Below, piece after piece: positions 16,315-45,016 of a DNA stretch of 64,000 nucleotides (within the stretch, counting starts at the first letter, position 1; every line of letters begins with the position of its first letter). The DNA is from Archaeoglobaceae archaeon (GTDB lineage: Archaea; Halobacteriota; Archaeoglobi; Archaeoglobales; Archaeoglobaceae): assembly GCA_015520485.1 (NCBI GenBank), contig WAPX01000035.1:1-64000 (forward strand), in the 5' to 3' direction. The notes beneath the pieces were generated by a model. That model was not told the DNA's origin. It ran no database searches and was given only the letters and a program-made list of their open reading frames with translations. The position numbers were made by a program, and so were the translations under genes.

Positions 16315-18294
16315 ATGAAAACGAGTTCAAGGACTGCGAAGAAGTCAGAAGTTGGTTTGGACGAATTCGCTGCAAAATCTGAAAGGAAATCAGAAAAAGA
16401 GGATAAAGAAAATGACGTAGAAAGCAAGGAGAGTGATTACACCGCCGGTCAGATAGAGGTTCTTGGCGACATAGAAGCCGTGAGAAAAAGGCCGGGAATG
16501 TACATAGGCAGCGTGGGTATAAGGGGTCTTCACCACCTGCTCTGGGAAATAGTCGACAACTCGATAGACGAAGCTCTCGCAGGTTACTGCAGGCGTATTA
16601 AGGTAACCCTCCACAGAGATGGTTCTGCAAGCGTGGAGGACGACGGAAGGGGGATTCCAACAGAAATGCACGAGCTCGGAAAGCCCGCACTTGAAATAGT
16701 TCTGACGAAGTTACACGCCGGAGGAAAGTTCGACAGAAAGGCGTACAGGGTTTCAGGGGGGCTGCACGGAGTTGGCCTCTCCGTTGTGAACGCTCTGTCC
16801 GAGTGGCTCGAGGTCAGAGTCTGGAGAAGCAAGGAGTACTACCAGAAGTACAGAAGAGGGAAGCCCGTAGAACCGTTAAAGGTCGTGGGAGAGGCCGACA
16901 GAACGGGAACCTATATCAGGTTCAAGCCGGATGAGGAAATATTTGAGGTTACGGAGTTCAGCTGGGAAATAGTTTCCCAGAGACTCAGAGAGCTTGCGTA
17001 CCTTAACAGGGGTATTAAACTCGAGCTTTACGATGAAAGAAAGGGAGAAAAAAGAACTTACTGTTACGAGGATGGAATAGCCGGTTTTGTTAAGAAGCTG
17101 AACACCGGAAAACCGACTCTGCACGACGTTATTTACCTGAGCGGTGAAAAAAACGGCGTTATCGTTGAGGTAGCCGTTCAGTTTACGGACACGGAGATAG
17201 AGAAAGTTCTCTACTTCGCCAACAACATAAACACTGTTGAAGGTGGTACGCACGCATCCGGATTCAAGGCTGGAATTACGAGAGCCATAAACGAATTCGG
17301 AAAAAAGCACCTGAAAAAGTTCAAACCACTGAGCGGAGCCGACATAAGGGAAGGGCTGACGGCAGTTGTGTCGGTCAAGGTTCCGGAGCCGCAGTTTGAA
17401 GGGCAGACGAAGACGAAGCTCACGAACAGCGAAGTGAGAACTGCTGTCGATTCAATCGTTTACTCCGGAATGCTCGAATGGCTTGAAGAACATACAGGAG
17501 AGGCTATGAAAATCATAGAAAAGTGCATAATGGCGAGAAAAGCAAGAGAAGCAGCCAGAAGAGCGAGAGAGCTCGTAAAGAAGAAGAGGGAAGGAATAAC
17601 TCTGCCCGGAAAACTTGCTGACTGTTCCTCCAGAAGGCCTGAGGAGAGAGAGCTGTTCATAGTCGAGGGAGAGTCTGCCGGAGGCTCAGCCAAGCAGGCA
17701 AGAGACAGGAGATTTCAGGCAATACTGCCGATAAGGGGTAAAATCATAAACGTCGAAAAAGCGGGGATGAACAAAGCCATGAAAAACGAGGAAATAAAAG
17801 CCATAGTGGCCGCTATAGGTGCGGGAATCAGCAGGGACTTCGACATAACCAAGGTCAGGTACAGAAGGGTCATAATAATGACGGACGCCGACGTTGACGG
17901 AGCGCACATAAGGACTCTGCTTCTAACTTTCTTTTACCGCTACATGAGACCGCTGATAGAGAGCGGATACCTGTACATAGCACAGCCCCCGCTCTACAGA
18001 ATAAAGAAGGGTAAGAAAGTTTACTACGCCTACTCGGACAGGGAGCTCGAGGACTGCCTGAACAGACTTGGTGACAAGGTCGAAATTCAGAGGTACAAGG
18101 GTCTCGGAGAGATGAACCCCGAACAGCTCTGGGAAACGACGATGAATCCGGAAAACAGGTACCTGATTCAGGTTACTGTGGAGGACGCAAAGAAGGCAGA
18201 CGAGCTGTTCTCGATACTGATGGGAGAGGACGTCGAGGCGAGAAGGAAGTTCATAATCGAGCATTCAAGGGAAGTAAAGAACCTCGACATCTAA
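16315..18294 (+). CDS. gyrB: DNA gyrase subunit B
   Basis: A 659-residue bacterial-type GyrB. After a charged N-terminal extension of about 45 residues comes the GHKL ATPase ('RKRPGMYIGS', 'IVDNSIDEALAGY', 'GGLHGVGLSVVNAL'). The transducer domain carries the 'QTKTKLTNSEV' lysine loop. The TOPRIM domain shows 'VEGESAGGSAKQARD' and 'DADVDGAHIRTLLL', and the tail domain ends 'RRKFIIEHSREVKNLDI'. Gyrase was acquired from bacteria by Archaeoglobales and others and introduces negative supercoils. gyrA is not in the window. A TATA-like TTTATC about 27 nt before ATG 16315 suggests a leaderless message. The 3' end overlaps tmcA by 4 nt. Confidence 0.95.
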   Translation: MKTSSRTAKKSEVGLDEFAAKSERKSEKEDKENDVESKESDYTAGQIEVLGDIEAVRKRPGMYIGSVGIRGLHHLLWEIVDNSIDEALAGYCRRIKVTLHRDGSASVEDDGRGIPTEMHELGKPALEIVLTKLHAGGKFDRKAYRVSGGLHGVGLSVVNALSEWLEVRVWRSKEYYQKYRRGKPVEPLKVVGEADRTGTYIRFKPDEEIFEVTEFSWEIVSQRLRELAYLNRGIKLELYDERKGEKRTYCYEDGIAGFVKKLNTGKPTLHDVIYLSGEKNGVIVEVAVQFTDTEIEKVLYFANNINTVEGGTHASGFKAGITRAINEFGKKHLKKFKPLSGADIREGLTAVVSVKVPEPQFEGQTKTKLTNSEVRTAVDSIVYSGMLEWLEEHTGEAMKIIEKCIMARKAREAARRARELVKKKREGITLPGKLADCSSRRPEERELFIVEGESAGGSAKQARDRRFQAILPIRGKIINVEKAGMNKAMKNEEIKAIVAAIGAGISRDFDITKVRYRRVIIMTDADVDGAHIRTLLLTFFYRYMRPLIESGYLYIAQPPLYRIKKGKKVYYAYSDRELEDCLNRLGDKVEIQRYKGLGEMNPEQLWETTMNPENRYLIQVTVEDAKKADELFSILMGEDVEARRKFIIEHSREVKNLDI

Positions 18295-36215: not shown

Positions 36216-38000
36216 TTAAAATTTTTCTATTCTCTTCAGCAGTCCCTCTTCGATCTCTCTTATGAGTTCTGTAGATTTACTGAGCTTTTTTAGCTGTTCG
36301 TAACACATTTCTATTTTTTCCTTAATTTCTTCCCTGCTCAAATCGTCAAATTCTTCTATTAAACCCTCAAGAAGTAAAGTCGCTCCGGAAACGGGATTTA
36401 CCAGCTTGTCGCAGATTGTTCTTACTTTAAGTACCTCGTCCTGAATTCCGGAAATCAGGTAGTCCACACCTCTACCGAGCTCTATGCACCTCGCTGCAAA
36501 TCCTATGGTGTTTATTATGTTTTTCAGTGTTTTCAATTTCATTTCGTCAGGTCTTGTTTTAAATACAATTCCAAAGATTCCATAGACTTTTCCTCTGTAA
36601 GCTGCTGGAAAGCAATAATAATATCCATCTCTATATAAATTATAAATATAACAACTTTTACAATTCCTTAGTATAACATTAAATTTATAATATCTCAATT
36701 TATATAAGCACTTAATTAACTGTCTGTTGTTTTTCAAACTTCTCTCTATTCTCCTTTTTGGGGAGTATATTTTTGGATTTTCGAGCTTAATACAGCACCA
36801 TGTAAGTGCTATACTGGGAAAAACTTTCTCTAAAACTTTACAGAATTTGGCAAAAAGGGACGTATAGCTTTTTTCTGTAAGAATTAAATTAAAAATCTGC
36901 TCATATAATTTTAATATATCTTCAACATCAGCTCTTGAAATTGAGCAGCAAAACAGAGGGTATCCTTCCAGAATGATTGATACCACTCTAAGGTTGCAGA
37001 ATACACATTCTCCATTCTTTTTAATCAGCACTGTTCTACATGTACCTCTACCATCTATTAACGCCTGTTTGATTGCAAAATCCACTTGCTTTAGATTTGG
37101 TATAACACTTTCAATTTTCAGACCTAAAACTTCTTTACCATAACCTGTTAATTCCTCAAAAAATTTATTAAAATAAATAATTCTTAAATCTTTATCAATA
37201 AAAGCGATTCCTTCATAACATGTTTCAAGTGCACATTTTAACCACTGAGTTTTTTCTTCAAGTTTGTATTCCATGTGTAAATATTTAAGTATGATACATA
37301 ACAAATTTTTCCAAATATTAGAAATTCTGCTCTCAAACTTTCTTTCCGGCGCGAGGCATATCTGTGAAAAACCAACAATTTCATCCCTGAACCTCAGTGG
37401 AACGATATAACACAAGTCTTTAAACTCTGAAGTGAAGACATTCCCTTCTTTGACCTGAATGAGATTTGAACATTGATTTACTGTTTTTGCGAGTGGATGC
37501 TTGAAATTTATTATTTCATCACCTTCAATGCTGGGATTTCTAGCTATGAGTTTGTAACCTTCTCCTATTTTCATGTATATTTCAAAATACTTTATTCCAG
37601 TTAGGTCTACGGTTAATTTTTTGAGAATTAATTCCAAGTCCTTTAAATTGTCTTTAAGGTTCAGCAGATAGCTTACAGCCCTTTCAAAAACATCATCAAC
37701 TTCAATCGCTATTTCCACTACGAGGTCTTTAAACTTGAACGCCGTAACTCTGTATTTTTTATTTTTAAATAAAATTTCTTCTTCAATTTGATTTTTGTTA
37801 CTCTTTAAAAGTTTAATTGCTGGTGTATCATTTTTCTCTTCAAAATACAGTTTCCAGCAGTCAAAAGTGTTGATTACCTCACTGCGGGAAACTTTTGAAA
37901 TTCTCTCACATGCTTTATTCCATAATTTTACCTTCCCATTCCTATCCAATGCATAAACTGGATATGGAAATGAATCGAGCAGATTTTCAATATCGCTCAT
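36216..38000 (-). CDS. PAS/GAF sensor protein without a catalytic kinase domain
   Basis: About 594 residues, last gene of an AT-rich signalling operon. Order: PAS (about 5-100, 'FPYPVYALDRNGKVKLWNKA'), GAF-like (105-240), a second PAS (255-365, 'EGIAFIDKDLRIIYFNKFFE'), a Cys-rich GAF-like domain (380-510, with 'NCKSCYIYNLYRDGYYYCF'), then a helical tail. The tail ('DKLVNPVSGATLLLEGLI') looks like a histidine kinase dimerisation domain, but no His stands at the phospho-acceptor site and no ATPase domain follows. ATG 38000 has a GTGAGG site 9 nt before it; GTG 38021 is also in frame. It probably modulates the kinase encoded upstream. Confidence 0.8.
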   Translation of the reverse strand: MSDIENLLDSFPYPVYALDRNGKVKLWNKACERISKVSRSEVINTFDCWKLYFEEKNDTPAIKLLKSNKNQIEEEILFKNKKYRVTAFKFKDLVVEIAIEVDDVFERAVSYLLNLKDNLKDLELILKKLTVDLTGIKYFEIYMKIGEGYKLIARNPSIEGDEIINFKHPLAKTVNQCSNLIQVKEGNVFTSEFKDLCYIVPLRFRDEIVGFSQICLAPERKFESRISNIWKNLLCIILKYLHMEYKLEEKTQWLKCALETCYEGIAFIDKDLRIIYFNKFFEELTGYGKEVLGLKIESVIPNLKQVDFAIKQALIDGRGTCRTVLIKKNGECVFCNLRVVSIILEGYPLFCCSISRADVEDILKLYEQIFNLILTEKSYTSLFAKFCKVLEKVFPSIALTWCCIKLENPKIYSPKRRIERSLKNNRQLIKCLYKLRYYKFNVILRNCKSCYIYNLYRDGYYYCFPAAYRGKVYGIFGIVFKTRPDEMKLKTLKNIINTIGFAARCIELGRGVDYLISGIQDEVLKVRTICDKLVNPVSGATLLLEGLIEEFDDLSREEIKEKIEMCYEQLKKLSKSTELIREIEEGLLKRIEKF

Positions 38001-38100
38001 TTTACTGTCCTCACTCTGCACGCAGTTTCAATCACAGCATCACATTAGTTTACATGAATTGTCCTACTTAAATTTTATTATAAAGCATTAAGTTAGGTGT

Positions 38101-40170
38101 TCACTGACTGTCCGAGTAAGAATTGCGTATACTGTTATCCACATCACATCTTTTAAACTTCAAAACAAATAAGCACCCCTCTGGTTTGTTATCTTTTACT
38201 TCAACAGTTCCACCGTATTTTTCCATTAAAGATTTAACAAGGTACAGTCCAATTCCCGTCCTGCCAGTAACTCCAAATTTAAATCCTTTCTTAAATACTT
38301 CCTCTCTTATCTCCGCAGGTATTCCGGGACCGTTATCAGCGATTTTAACCTCGACCCATTTGTCGTTACATTTAACGTCAATAAAGATTTTTTTCTCTTC
38401 TTTATCGTTGTGAATAACTGCATTGCTAAGCAAGTTCTCGAAAACTGAATATACAAATTCATCAGCTATAACGGAGCATTCGTCAACGTTCATAGTAATC
38501 GATACATTTTTATCTTTAATTGTTTCTACAATATTGTGAATTGTGTCTTTTATATTTATACAAGTTAACTCGTTATTATCATGGAGTGCAAGTTCAATTT
38601 TTTTTATACTGTTTATAAGTTCAATACAATTATCAAGTATTTTTTCGATTTTGTTTATGTACTCAGCTTCTCCCGTTTCTTTGTACATTTCGAGATAGCC
38701 TGCTATTGCAGTTATGCTGTTGCTTATGTCATGTCTGAGTAAGCTATTCATGAACTTTAACTGTTCGTACATATCTCTTATCTTCTCCTGAGCTTTCTTT
38801 AAATCGGTGATATCTTTGGCTGTTACAATTCTGTACAACTGGTTCCCGAAAGCTGCAGATTTTACATTTACCAGTACTTTTCTCCCGCTTTCAGCTACAG
38901 TCCCTTCAAATACTTCGCTGTTCCAGTTCCCTCTGATTACCTCGTATATTTTATTACATTCATTTTTGTGTTTTCTACATTCACAAATCCACTTTTTCGC
39001 TTCTTTATTTATATCTACAATTTTTCCATTTTCATCAATAATAAATATAGCATCAGTAGAGTAGTTGAGCAATGTTTTAAACCTCTTCAACTCTTCTACA
39101 AGTTTTCTTTCAGTAACATCTCTAATAACCCCTACAATGCTTGTAACTTCGTTACCTTTAACCACAGGAACTTTATATCCTTCAAAAAACAGAGTTTTAC
39201 CTTGGTATTTTACGCTAACTTCAAACCTCCTGAAGCTCTTGCTCTTTAGTATTTCCATGTCTGTTTTTCTGCAAATTTCAGCAAGCTCTGGCGGCAATAC
39301 GTCTTCGTCTCTTTTACCGATTATTTCCTCTTTCGGTAAATTGACAAAGCGAGCAAAAGCATCGTTTACAAGAACATATCTAAGATTTTTATCTTTCATA
39401 AAAATAAAATTTCTTAAACAATCTACAAGGGTTTGAAGTTTTTTATTCATAACTTCCAATTCTGTTATATCTCTCAACACAAGTACAAATTTATCGGTAT
39501 TATATATTTTTGCAGAATTTACCTCGAAGTACATACTGTTAATTACAAGTCTTATTTTCTTACAGTTGCCGGCTTTCCAGTAACGTATATTCTCCTTAAG
39601 TTTTTCTCGATCTTCTTTGTTAAAACAAGCCAAATCGTAAATTTTTCTTCCCACTACATCTGAAGGGGATAGATTTGATAATTTTATAAAACAATTATTA
39701 ACGTCGACAATTTCTCCTGTCTCACTTATTACTATAACAGCATCTGGTATTGAGTGTATTAAAACTTTCAATTTTTCCAATTCAACTTTTTTACATTCTG
39801 CAGCAATTTTATCTACAACCTCTTTAATCCTTTTGGAGAAAGAATATATTATTCTTTTCCAGTCACAATCAATTCTCTCAATGGTTTCAATGTAAAATAA
39901 TCCATGGTCAAATTTACATATATACGCGTTACCCTTTGGATTATTCTTTGCATCTTTTATAACCTTTTCTGCTTCTGGCCAGTTCTTAAAACCAAGTGGA
40001 AAGTGCTTAGAGATACATCCCTGTACATCTATTCTCAGATATGCTCTCTTAGCTTTTAACAATCTCGAACACTTATCCAATACTTCTTCTCCAAAGTCGT
40101 CCACGTTTTCCGGTATTTTCAGGTTCAGGACTTCATAAAGCAGTGCTGGGTTGTTTACGGATATGCTCAT
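38101..40170 (-). CDS. PAS sensor histidine kinase
   Basis: About 689 residues. A GAF-like N-terminal part is followed by three PAS domains ('IPDAVIVISETGEIVDVNN', 'FIFMKDKNLRYVLVNDAF', 'TDAIFIIDENGKIVDINKEA'), a HisKA domain with the acceptor His in 'LLRHDISNSITAIAGYLEMY', and an ATPase domain with the N box 'FENLLSNAVIHND', G1 'IADNGPGIP' and G2 'GRTGIGLYLVKSLMEKYGG'. The third PAS has four close cysteines ('WICECRKHKNEC'). No membrane helix is seen, so the sensor is cytoplasmic. GGAGGTG sits 5 nt before ATG 40170, inside the end of the FIST gene. The response regulator is two genes upstream. Confidence 0.9.
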   Translation of the reverse strand: MSISVNNPALLYEVLNLKIPENVDDFGEEVLDKCSRLLKAKRAYLRIDVQGCISKHFPLGFKNWPEAEKVIKDAKNNPKGNAYICKFDHGLFYIETIERIDCDWKRIIYSFSKRIKEVVDKIAAECKKVELEKLKVLIHSIPDAVIVISETGEIVDVNNCFIKLSNLSPSDVVGRKIYDLACFNKEDREKLKENIRYWKAGNCKKIRLVINSMYFEVNSAKIYNTDKFVLVLRDITELEVMNKKLQTLVDCLRNFIFMKDKNLRYVLVNDAFARFVNLPKEEIIGKRDEDVLPPELAEICRKTDMEILKSKSFRRFEVSVKYQGKTLFFEGYKVPVVKGNEVTSIVGVIRDVTERKLVEELKRFKTLLNYSTDAIFIIDENGKIVDINKEAKKWICECRKHKNECNKIYEVIRGNWNSEVFEGTVAESGRKVLVNVKSAAFGNQLYRIVTAKDITDLKKAQEKIRDMYEQLKFMNSLLRHDISNSITAIAGYLEMYKETGEAEYINKIEKILDNCIELINSIKKIELALHDNNELTCINIKDTIHNIVETIKDKNVSITMNVDECSVIADEFVYSVFENLLSNAVIHNDKEEKKIFIDVKCNDKWVEVKIADNGPGIPAEIREEVFKKGFKFGVTGRTGIGLYLVKSLMEKYGGTVEVKDNKPEGCLFVLKFKRCDVDNSIRNSYSDSQ

Positions 40171-40171
40171 T

Positions 40172-41245
40172 TTAAACACCTCCGACAGCAACAACAACGG
40201 TTTTGTTATGGAAACTTGGAATATAATTTTTTTGTGTAGAAACTATTTCTCCTATACTTAGCATTCCAATGTACGGTATATTTATAATTTCATCAATTCT
40301 TTTCAATTCTTTACGAAATTTTTTTCTGAGCAGTTGTTTTCTCGAGAGGCAGTCAAACACAACCGCAAACTTGGCGTTACCGCCGTAATTTGTGATAGCC
40401 TCCCTTACAGCATTTTCGGCTGCATTTAGAACGTCTTCTTCTTCACACTCCATTACGTACGTAACGGAGCTGTAAGGCAATTCACTCAAAACTTCAATTG
40501 AACCATCATCACTGTACGATACCGGACTTCTGAGCTTGTACTTTCCACAGGCGCAAAGAAAGCCAAGGGGATACAGTTTTCTACACTCATCAAAATCATC
40601 TTTGCAACATCCCGCAAGTTTGCAGTAAACATCTATTGCTTTCTTTCCATCGAGCTCGTAAATTTTATTTCCAGAATACTTCGACATTATAAGAGGTCCT
40701 TTCATTACCTCCCAGCCATGATCAAAGGACACACTCATCTTAATGTTAATTCCCGCAGAACAAATCTGATCTCCAACACCTTTTTCTGTAAATTGAAGAC
40801 TTCTCTTTTCATAAAAATTTCCTGCACACCCTCCTGTATATGAGAAGCTGTAACTCAGATAATTGTATAAACCTCTTAAGATTGTTGAAATTTTTCTGGT
40901 TAGCCAGCTCATAAATGTTATTATGCTACCACTGTTAAGGATATTTAACTTTTCACCTATTTCCTTAGGTGAATTTGAAATTTCTGTTATCGCTTTAACT
41001 CCACTGATAGCAATGGCACCGGCACCGTTAATGAGCTTTCCACCGTGTATTATTCCTTCAGTGTAACTTCCTATAAATGGACACCCTAATATAGATCTAA
41101 TTTCTCCCACAATTTCGTTATTTACGGGTGTTGTAGTGTATAAAATTGAAAAATCTGGATTTTCCAGCTCACTTGCAATTCTTTCCGCTACTTTCATCAA
41201 ATTTTTACTGTCTCGACCACTTAACGCTGCTGTACTCACTTTCAT
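40172..41245 (-). CDS. FIST-domain sensory protein
   Basis: A 357-residue protein with FIST_N and FIST_C domains. FIST_N starts 'STAALSGRDSKNLMKVAERI' and includes 'PFIGSYTEGIIHGGKLINGA'; FIST_C includes 'AKFAVVFDCLSRKQLL' and ends 'IPYIGMLSIGEIV'. FIST domains are thought to bind small ligands such as amino acids and often accompany two-component systems. A segment with six or seven cysteines ('CKLAGCCKDDFDECRKL' and 'FLCACGK') is unusual and could bind metal or sense redox state. The gene lies between the receiver gene and the kinase gene, with only 1 nt to the kinase start. Confidence 0.88.
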   Translation of the reverse strand: MKVSTAALSGRDSKNLMKVAERIASELENPDFSILYTTTPVNNEIVGEIRSILGCPFIGSYTEGIIHGGKLINGAGAIAISGVKAITEISNSPKEIGEKLNILNSGSIITFMSWLTRKISTILRGLYNYLSYSFSYTGGCAGNFYEKRSLQFTEKGVGDQICSAGINIKMSVSFDHGWEVMKGPLIMSKYSGNKIYELDGKKAIDVYCKLAGCCKDDFDECRKLYPLGFLCACGKYKLRSPVSYSDDGSIEVLSELPYSSVTYVMECEEEDVLNAAENAVREAITNYGGNAKFAVVFDCLSRKQLLRKKFRKELKRIDEIINIPYIGMLSIGEIVSTQKNYIPSFHNKTVVVAVGGV

Positions 41246-41287
41246 CCAAACACCATCCCCAGCTCCACAGGAAATAAAGGGGTCTCT

Positions 41288-41680
41288 CTATTTTTTGTGC
41301 TCGTTTAAGTGTTGATTTATAAACTCAACAAGTTCAGCTCTCTTGAAGGGTTTGGGAAGAATGCCTTTTGCACCCGCTTCAAGCATCTCTTTACCTTTTT
41401 TCGAAGAATAGGCGGTTATTGCAAGTATTAAAGCATCCGGATTTTCTTTCAAAAGTAACTTTGTGCTTTCAATTCCATTCATTATCGGCATCATTATATC
41501 CATTAAAACAACATCGGGCTTGTACTTCTCGTACATCTGAACAGCTTCAAGACCGTTTGAGGCTTCAATAACGTCAAAGTTCTTGCATAGTATAAGCTTC
41601 ATAGCTTCTCTCATTGTTGGCTCATCGTCCACAATGAGAACAACTGGCTTTTTTCTACCATCACGCTCTGAATCATGCAT
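41288..41680 (-). CDS. CheY-like response regulator receiver
   Basis: A 130-residue single receiver domain. The acidic pocket is in 'VVLIVDDEPTMREAM', the phospho-acceptor Asp (about residue 61) in 'VVLMDIMMPIMNG', the conserved Thr in 'ILAITAYSS', and the Lys in 'GILPKPFKRAEL'. There is no output domain, so it acts through partner proteins or as a phosphate relay. AGAGGTGA lies 5 nt before ATG 41680; the GTG at 41689 is part of that site. It is the first gene of the operon with the FIST protein, kinase and PAS/GAF protein. Confidence 0.9.
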   Translation of the reverse strand: MHDSERDGRKKPVVLIVDDEPTMREAMKLILCKNFDVIEASNGLEAVQMYEKYKPDVVLMDIMMPIMNGIESTKLLLKENPDALILAITAYSSKKGKEMLEAGAKGILPKPFKRAELVEFINQHLNEHKK

Positions 41681-41894
41681 TGGATTCACCTCTTGTGAGT
41701 ATCATAATTCTCATTTTTGACTCGCTATTCGAGTATTTAAAACTTTCTGAAATTTTTTAAAATTTTTTAATAAATTATTATAATACATTAATATTTGTAA
41801 CATTAAGAATAATTTGAACTAATTTATTGCTGTGCAGTTTTTAACTCCTGACAACCCAAAACATTTTTAAAACACGCAAAATTAACGTGGTCTC

Positions 41895-42705: not shown

Positions 42706-42822
42706 TTGACCAAAAACGCAGAAACTCTGCTAATTGAAAAATCGAGTCTCAGAGCGATTTAAGTAAAGAAAAGCTTTAAAAAGCAGAATATCAGCAATCA
42801 GCAAATCAAAAGGGTGAAAATT

Positions 42823-44115
42823 ATGGAGATCGCAGCCTTCGCGATAACTCATAAAAAAGCCACGATAAAAGAAATAGAAACAGCATGGCATGGAGATTTA
42901 AAAACTCTAATTGATAAAATTTTAAACAATCCATATATATATGAATGTGCAATTTTAATGACCTGTAACAGAGTGGAGGTTTACGTCGTAGGAAAAAATA
43001 CCGAGGAAATACTCAGAAAAATTGCGGGTAAAATGCACGTTTCTGACAGGATTGTGGACTACTACAAAAACAGCAAATGCGTTGAACACCTGTTCAGAGT
43101 GGCATCGGGACTCGAATCGATGATTGTTGGAGAGGATCAGATACTCGGGCAGGTAAAGGAATTCTACAACTTGTGCAAGGAATACGGTGGTATTGGCAGA
43201 ACGCTGGATCTTGTATTTTCCAAAGCAATCCACGTTGGAACAAAAGTAAGAAAACTTACAAATATAAATAAAGGCTCTGTATCTATAGGCTCTGCTGCTG
43301 TAGAGCTTGCAGAGAAAAAGCTTGGAAGCCTGAAGAACAAAAGGATACTGATAGTGGGTGCCGGGGAAATGGCAAAAATTGTTGCAAAAAACCTCGCCTG
43401 CAAGCAGTGTGAAATAGCGATAGCGAACAGAACTGTTGAGAATGCTGAGAAACTGGTGAGAGAAATCGGAGGAAAAGCGTATCCGCTTTCGGAACTTGAA
43501 AGCCTTATTGAGAGGAGCGACATAATAATATCTGCTACATCAGCAAAAGGTTATATAATAACCAGAGACATTGTAAAAAAAGCTAATGGGAAAAAATTGT
43601 TTATAGACATAGCCCTTCCAAGGGACATAGACCCGGGAGTAAAAGAGCTTGGATTTGAACTCTATACAATTGAGGATTTGAGAGAAATCAGTGAAGAAAA
43701 CCTCAAAAAAAGACTTAACGAGGCGAAAAAAGCCGAGAAAATAATAGAAGAAGAGTTAAAGCATTTTGATTTGATGCTGAAAGATTTGAAAGCAAATTCG
43801 GCTATATCAGCAATGTACACGAGAGCTGAGGACATAAAGAAAGACGAGATAATTGAGTTTTACAACAAACTTTCCGCCAAATACAATGTGGATGAGAGCG
43901 TTTTGCCTGTTATAGAAGAGTTCATATCTTCATTCGTCAAAAAGTTTTTGAGACTACCAACTGTGAGGCTGAGAAAGGCGGCAAGGGAAGGGAGAGATGA
44001 TGTCCTCAATGCTGTTGAATACGTTTTTGGAGGTGAAAACCTTGTACCCTGTTTCGAGGATGAGAAGGCTCAGGAAGGACAGTATAAGACCGCTTGTGCA
44101 GGAAAACAGACTTAG
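42823..44115 (+). CDS. hemA: Glutamyl-tRNA reductase
   Basis: About 430 residues. The catalytic cysteine is C48 in '[13 protein letters not shown]'. Other marks are '[20 protein letters not shown]', the NADPH fold '[17 protein letters not shown]' and '[10 protein letters not shown]', and the C-terminal dimerisation helix '[18 protein letters not shown]'. It reduces glutamyl-tRNA to glutamate semialdehyde, the first step of tetrapyrrole synthesis. AGGGTGA lies before ATG 42823; a GTG at 42814 is part of that site and is rejected. A TATA-like CTTTAAAAAG is near 42775. The C-terminal 20 residues overlap hemB. Confidence 0.95.
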
Positions 44116-45016
44116 CCTTAACGACCTAATAACTCCCGTATTCGTTGATGAGAGAATAGATTCCCGGGTAGAAATACCTTCCATGCCGGGATACTACAGG
44201 TACTCTCTTGGAGAAGTGGCTGAAGAAGTGGGAAAGGCAATGGAAATGGGGTTAAAAGCGTTCATAATTTTCGGGATACCCTCGGTAAAAGACGAAACGG
44301 GAAGTTCAGCTTTCGGGAAGGGAGATGTCGTTCAGAAAGCTGTCAGGAAAATAAAGGAGGAGTACGAGGACGCTGTTGTTATAACTGACGTGTGCTTATG
44401 CGAGTACACAACGCACGGACACTGTGGAATTATTAGGGGAAGGAAGATCCTCAACGACGAAACACTTCCGGTTATAGCGAAAACAGCCGTCAGCCACGCT
44501 GAAGCCGGAGCTGATATCGTGGCTCCATCAGGCATGATGGATGGGATGGTGGGAGCAATCAGAAAAGCTCTTGACGGGGAAGGATTCGAAGACGTTGCAG
44601 TAATGAGCTATTCGGCAAAATACGCATCTTCGTTTTACGGTCCGTTCAGAGAGGCTGCTGAAAGTGGATTCTCTTTTGGAGACAGGAAAAGTTATCAGAT
44701 GGATTTCCACAACAGCAGAGAGGCGATAAGGGAAATAGAGCTCGACATAATGGAAGGGGCTGACATAGTTATGGTAAAGCCAGCTCTCGCATACCTCGAC
44801 GTTATAAGAATGGCCAGAGAGAGGTTTAACCATCCCATATCAGCTTACAACGTGAGTGGAGAGTACTCCATGGTTAAAGCAGCTGAAAAACTCGGGTGGA
44901 TGGACGGTAAAAGCTTGGCATATGAAATACTCGTATCCATAAAAAGAGCCGGAGCGGACCTAATAATAACGTACCACTCTTACGAGATTGCCGAAATGCT
45001 GCAGAATTTGAAATAA
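44042..45016 (+). CDS. hemB: Porphobilinogen synthase (delta-aminolevulinate dehydratase)
   Basis: A 324-residue ALA dehydratase. It contains the zinc site '[15 protein letters not shown]', the first lysine in '[16 protein letters not shown]', and the Schiff-base lysine in '[15 protein letters not shown]'. It joins two aminolevulinate molecules. The start is most likely TTG 44042 ('[18 protein letters not shown]'): a perfect GGAGGTGA at 44029-44036 lies 5 nt upstream and family members begin at this point. This gives a 74 nt overlap with hemA, so translation is coupled. Confidence 0.93.

Follow-up and report, generated by a model that had tools for sequence, protein, structure and literature searches.

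To our knowledge, archaeal two-component systems rely mostly on bare receivers without known output or partners, and the many ATPase-less HisKA proteins are without an assigned function. In bacteria, the FIST protein NosP binds heme, senses NO and controls an adjacent kinase (PMC12570481). The ATPase-less HisKA proteins of Archaeoglobi and Methanomicrobia were described in 2018 as 'nonenzymatic HK-like proteins', for which that study already suggested a phosphatase role (Galperin et al., 2018, PMC5847659). In HisKA kinases, the phospho-accepting His and an acidic residue at +1 serve the kinase reaction (an E at +1 the kinase reaction only), an Asn or Thr at +4 serves only the phosphatase reaction, and the dimerization hairpin (DHp) by itself suffices as a phosphatase in EnvZ and NtrB; D-x-x-x-Q is the motif of CheZ and NarX (PMC3510030).

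Here we describe a four-gene archaeal operon that combines these elements. Neither FIST-kinase pairs (NosP-NosK) nor HisKA proteins without ATPase are new in themselves. The new points are an invariant Asp/Asn signature, a fixed set of four genes and a genome in which a single such system is detected. An earlier note on this DNA had called the operon an undescribed system, which is too strong given the published operons of FIST (NosP), kinase and regulator (PMC12570481) and the ATPase-less HisKA proteins of the 2018 study (PMC5847659).

Layout of the locus

The window analyzed is a stretch of 64,000 nucleotides from an Archaeoglobaceae archaeon. According to the earlier note, positions 36216-41680 hold four minus-strand genes, arranged as receiver, FIST, PAS kinase and PAS/GAF; our reading of the open reading frames and Pfam matches confirmed this arrangement (Table 1). 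The intergenic gaps measure 42 nt between receiver and FIST, 1 nt (base 40171) between FIST and kinase, and 100 nt between the kinase and the fourth gene, which encodes a pseudo-histidine kinase (pseudokinase). Both the 1-nt gap and a Shine-Dalgarno sequence for the kinase (GGAGGTG) inside the FIST gene are as first claimed. The genes had also been called tightly packed, which holds for the first three and not for the fourth, because the 100-nt gap before it contains the TATA-like element TTTAAGTA. Since a similar element, weaker than the one before the receiver, precedes the fourth gene in most of the genomes compared, TTTAAGTA is a possible second promoter and the pseudokinase gene may have a promoter of its own. 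Upstream of the receiver gene, the element TTTAAATA is conserved in an alignment of five genomes. The proteins of the operon contain no DNA-binding or enzymatic output domain, as had been noted, and output would probably run through protein contact.

Table 1. Features of the locus, in window coordinates.
Feature	Position	Strand	Description
Receiver gene	41288..41680	(-)	130 aa, ATG 41680; stand-alone CheY-like receiver; Pfam Response_reg 5.4e-28
FIST gene	40172..41245	(-)	357 aa, FIST_N-FIST_C; Pfam FIST_C 1.4e-22, FIST 2.9e-17
PAS histidine kinase gene	38101..40170	(-)	689 aa, ATG 40170; soluble
Pseudo-histidine kinase gene (fourth gene, PAS/GAF)	36216..38000	(-)	594 aa, ATG 38000; Pfam PAS domains
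DHp-like helical hairpin of pseudokinase	36222..36545	(-)	Residues 486-593; predicted structure and profile match
D531-K-L-V-N535 of pseudokinase	36396..36410	(-)	Asp at phospho-His position, Asn at +4; ortholog alignment
TATA-like element TTTTAAATA	41734..41742	(-)	~54 nt before receiver ATG; kept in 5/5 genomes compared (alignment)
TATA-like element TTTAAGTA	38065..38072	(-)	Kinase-pseudokinase gap; similar element in ~4/6 genomes (alignment)

The only two-component system detected in the genome

The window genome (G000) is 1.57 Mb in size and 99.96% complete. It produced a single match to Pfam Response_reg (PF00072), and four relatives (G001, G002, G003 and G005) produced one each. HATPase_c matched three of its proteins: the operon kinase, GyrB (the DNA gyrase subunit B gene lies at window positions 16315-18294) and a protein that, from its sequence, reads as topoisomerase VI-B. 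One copy each of FIST and the pseudokinase was detected. With the sole receiver, histidine kinase, FIST protein and pseudokinase found, the operon is the only two-component system detected in G000. A genus in which a four-gene operon is the sole two-component system detected is a new point, and in a genome with one kinase, one receiver and one pseudokinase, cross-talk no longer complicates the assignment of partners, as it usually does. In a genome from a second genus (G010), the other receivers adjoin one another, and an HATPase protein of CheA size lies near them. This points to chemotaxis, so that the operon receiver is probably the only non-chemotaxis receiver there.

The operon receiver carries the full DD / D / T / K phosphorylation set, and these motif columns are conserved in relatives. 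The kinase consists of an unassigned N-terminal domain of ~125 aa, three PAS domains, a HisKA domain with HDxxN and a complete HATPase_c domain; its H, N, G1 and G2 boxes are intact and conserved in relatives. Because all catalytic residues are kept and each protein is the sole one of its kind detected in G000, we strongly infer that this kinase phosphorylates the operon receiver.

Conservation and composition of the locus

A search for the four-gene order in relatives, proposed in the earlier note, found it at the same locus in congeners. The order is complete in G000 and three congeners (G001-G003); in G005 contig ends divide the operon, and the G004 contig extends only as far as the last gene. 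Throughout the genus, UPF0147 lies beside the fourth gene, as do p27 and eRF1-like genes where the contig is long enough. At this UPF0147/p27 site, the G010 genome has receiver-kinase2-FIST-kinase-pseudokinase, with an extra kinase. Compared with the window copies, UPF0147 is ~97% identical, FIST and the kinase are 50-67% identical within the genus, and the PAS/GAF protein is 30-71% identical. Upstream of the operon and on the same strand, three congeners carry an aldehyde ferredoxin oxidoreductase gene (L039 5563-7344, L040 11346-13091, L041 2515-4248); in the window, DUF1614 and HemA, divergent, occupy that place.

The operon is indeed richer in A and T than the window, with a GC of 0.344 versus 0.447 on average (sd 0.034) across window stretches of equal size. 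The recent horizontal transfer suggested on this ground is not supported by location and composition in relatives, because the operon occupies the same locus throughout the genus and in the second genus, and its genes are AT-richer than their neighbors in every relative yet track the GC of the host genome (0.19-0.29 in G003, 0.43-0.48 in G002). We read the locus as old and fast-evolving, and not as a recent import.

The fourth protein is a truncated pseudo-histidine kinase

The fourth product had been described as a kinase-less PAS/GAF protein. It does have PAS and GAF domains, and no ATPase domain was found in it by Pfam or by the HATPase_c scan of G000, but that description missed a C-terminal DHp-like hairpin in which Asp replaces the phospho-His. 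The AlphaFold2 model (pLDDT 80) reads as PAS-GAF-PAS-GAF followed by this long helical hairpin (Table 1). Our family profile A2, in which the window sequence is one row, matches the hairpin at 6.1e-19. Pfam HisKA matches the window protein weakly (36258-36419, E 0.09) and the G010 relative above the cut-off. A PDB sequence search with the hairpin profile returned weak matches to EnvZ and other DHp domains (best E 0.004), in which the Asp column aligns with the phospho-His of S-H-D/E-L-R-T-P-L once the shared L-R-x-P-L is lined up; the register of Asp and phospho-His rests on these weak alignments and on the Pfam HisKA matches. A fold search with the whole protein found DosP and phytochromes at low TM-scores, as expected for a multi-PAS/GAF protein, and says nothing on the hairpin. 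D531, N535 and P536 are invariant in six orthologs that span the 30-71% identity range given above; the protein is fast-evolving, with ~30% identity to the more distant congeners, and none of the six genomes has a break in its reading frame. The fourth protein is a truncated pseudo-histidine kinase, with a HisKA-type hairpin and no ATPase domain.

An Asp/Asn signature across the pseudokinase family

The hairpin aligns with a family spread over Archaeoglobaceae and methanogens. The family consensus is D-[RKH]-[IL]-R-N-P-L, at the place where HisKA kinases have H-E/D-L-R-T/N-P-L (PMC3510030), and the proteins stop ~55-90 residues further on, ahead of any ATPase domain. Position 0 is Asp in all 128 unique homologs. 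Among the 125 with an observed stop, the +4 residue is N in 118, Q in 4, L in 2 and T in 1 (N or Q in 122), and the +1 residue is H in 44, R in 37, K in 28, Q in 7, E in 4, G in 3 and A in 2 (H, R or K in 109). The profile used to collect the 128 sequences was itself made from sequences of this kind, and genomes of relatives do not count as independent samples; we therefore repeated the test without this profile, using Pfam HisKA on G131 (2178400 bp), which we take to be A. fulgidus. Pfam HisKA matched 23 places in this genome. Twelve are followed by HATPase; the remaining 11 coincide one for one with the 11 members of the family, and every one of these ATPase-less proteins has Asp at the phospho-His position.

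In sequence, D-x-x-x-N resembles the CheZ/NarX phosphatase motif: an acidic residue with an amide at i and i+4 in a helix is found in the family, in the 118 N and 4 Q cases of the 125. At L167 3174-4484, near a pseudokinase-receiver pair, lies a second, more divergent pseudokinase hairpin, ADKIRTPLTAI, whose position 0 is Asp and whose +4 residue is Thr.

Across 55 Archaeoglobaceae genomes, the counts of pseudokinases and receivers correlate (Spearman 0.89), a correlation that could reflect overall signaling content. A receiver is present in 44 of the 45 pseudokinase-bearing genomes, and the exception is 68% complete. Pseudokinases that adjoin a receiver are a minority (2/11 in A. fulgidus, 3/13 in G009). 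One A. fulgidus locus (L164; G131, C1:405000-409000) is an overlapping operon of pseudokinase, receiver and true kinase that offers a compact test case. At three further loci (L165, from A. fulgidus, L166 and L167), a pseudokinase and a receiver are paired with no kinase adjoining, their genes overlapping or 1 nt apart.

The FIST protein as a probable sensor

FIST matches were found in 61 of 394 sampled genomes of the phylum. A kinase lies directly downstream of FIST in ~26 of 30 archaeal FIST loci inspected, and the receiver-FIST-kinase order recurs in another genus (G141). These results support the earlier reading of a single conserved signaling locus in which FIST is the probable sensor partner, that is, an auxiliary sensor, of the adjacent kinase; by analogy, this archaeal operon likely follows the same sensor logic as NosP. 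The predicted FIST model is of low confidence (pLDDT 58, from 7 sequences) and its best PDB match is FBXO22, a FIST-domain protein; together they back the FIST fold only and are too weak to argue for a ligand site. We dropped the idea of a common FIST-docking N-terminal domain in all archaeal FIST-partner kinases: these domains look similar by eye, and the profile matched only this genus and the G010-type genus.

Clustered cysteines in the FIST protein, the third PAS domain of the kinase and the last GAF domain had been proposed as a sign that the system may sense redox state, a metal or NO. All of the clusters are present in the window copy, but their conservation is uneven between proteins. 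In FIST, where support for the proposal is partial, several cysteines are kept within the genus; C213, C267 and C299 do not vary among the 7 aligned sequences, with the rest of the cluster partly kept. The CxxC of the last GAF domain is kept in five of six pseudokinase orthologs, which gives the proposal fair support there. The cluster in the third PAS domain of the kinase is not conserved in the alignment of relatives, and we discarded it as a sensor.

Several other features of FIST loci were seen. FIST-kinase genes have HemA close by both in the window, where a HemB-like gene joins it (42814-45016), and in another genus (G009, L048 1854-3167), possibly by chance and possibly with relevance to a tetrapyrrole ligand. 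One genome of the same phylum (G142, L083) has three tandem FIST-like reading frames, and FIST domains within open frames of ~1000 aa (G296:C1:1193431 and G341:C1:1048837) are possible FIST fusions.

A proposed mechanism and its rivals

Our model starts from four observations: the genes are present, they are conserved, each is the sole one of its kind detected in the genome, and Asp invariably replaces the phospho-His of the pseudokinase. From these we propose a cytoplasmic two-component system in which two sensor arms would act on one stand-alone receiver. FIST would bind a ligand and contact the adjacent kinase, probably at its N-terminal domain, raising or lowering autophosphorylation in the manner of NosP and NosK in bacteria. 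The kinase would phosphorylate the receiver, the sole one available. The pseudokinase would have lost its ATPase domain and exchanged its phospho-His for Asp while keeping the receiver-binding hairpin and the phosphatase +4 Asn, and its PAS/GAF input would most likely control how the D-x-x-x-N pair dephosphorylates the receiver. We put the chance that this whole model is right, with FIST tuning the kinase, the kinase phosphorylating the receiver and the pseudokinase dephosphorylating (most likely) or reading it, at about one half.

For the pseudokinase, we favor a sensor-controlled phosphatase acting on the operon receiver, because the family lacks the His and the acidic +1 residue, has the +4 Asn and co-occurs with receivers; drawn from sequence and analogy, this reading seems to us evenly poised between right and wrong. 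Several points go against it: the operon kinase, which likewise carries N at +4, could itself supply the phosphatase activity, only a minority of pseudokinases adjoin a receiver, and the pseudokinase gene may be separately transcribed. In the HisKA protein CrdS, changing the +4 Asn to Gln abolished phosphatase activity; the four Q cases are therefore weaker for the phosphatase reading, and two sequences have Leu at +4. Somewhat more tentatively, we suggest that the Asp-class truncated kinases of Archaeoglobi and methanogens may generally be sensor-controlled receiver phosphatases, derived from histidine kinases by loss of the ATPase domain and a change from H-E/D to D-H/K/R, with this operon as their simplest natural setting.

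The main rival, which we consider rather unlikely, is that the hairpin binds receiver~P, leaves the phosphate in place and relays the signal to the kinase or another partner, so that the pseudokinase is an output and not an eraser. The precedent is DivL, in which Tyr takes the place of the His: it binds DivK~P, has no phosphatase activity and can dispense with its ATPase domain (PMC4211667). The operon encodes no other output protein, and in many genomes pseudokinases are about as numerous as receivers. DivL nevertheless retains its ATPase domain, and a reader of this kind has no obvious need for an invariant Asp and a +4 amide together. The same two residues weigh against a sensor-controlled inhibitor without chemistry of its own, which would form mixed dimers with the kinase or compete for the receiver: dimerization alone requires neither an invariant Asp nor an invariant Asn, and several pseudokinase-receiver pairs have no adjoining kinase. 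We find this second rival improbable, even though DHp hairpins dimerize, as is established for the family, the pseudokinase gene adjoins the kinase gene, and A. fulgidus has its pseudokinase-receiver-kinase operon. Least probable of all is an ordinary NosP-type NO/heme system in which the fourth gene is the degenerating remnant of a second kinase, as bacterial FIST-kinase-regulator operons that sense NO via heme (PMC12570481) and the fast divergence of the fourth gene might suggest, since its Asp, Asn and Pro are invariant despite that divergence, its frame is open in each of the six genomes, and in other genera the class has many members of uniform type.

Comparison with known systems

Like NosP-NosK-NosR, the archaeal operon encodes a single-domain FIST protein (FIST_N and FIST_C) beside a soluble histidine kinase and with a response regulator, and in both systems the kinase begins with a stretch (~130 residues in NosK) of no recognized sensory family (PMC12570481). 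Unlike NosP systems, where a c-di-GMP output domain is usual, though not universal, the archaeal operon has a bare receiver without one; its kinase has three PAS domains, a pseudokinase is added, and heme or NO binding would be putative.

The pseudokinase resembles DivL of Caulobacter in joining PAS sensors to a DHp domain with a replaced phospho-His, and DivL binds a stand-alone receiver, as the pseudokinase may; DivL, however, has Tyr in place of Asp, keeps its ATPase domain and lacks phosphatase activity (PMC4211667). With CheZ and NarX (HisKA_3), whose motif is D-x-x-x-Q, it shares a helix that pairs an acidic residue with an amide at +4 (PMC3510030), but in the pseudokinase the motif reads D-x-x-x-N, lies on a HisKA-type hairpin and has its Asp where the phospho-His would be, and its phosphatase activity is putative.

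The closest match is the class of Galperin et al., 2018, which also has PAS/GAF sensors and a C-terminal HisKA-like dimerization domain without HATPase and is abundant in the same taxa (PMC5847659). A conserved His is stated there for the class, whereas we found Asp in all 128 sequences of our sample, among them the 11/11 A. fulgidus proteins, often with a His one residue later. The invariant Asp/Asn signature thus disagrees with the conserved His of the published description (PMC5847659), and it gives the ATPase-less HisKA class a concrete, testable activity.
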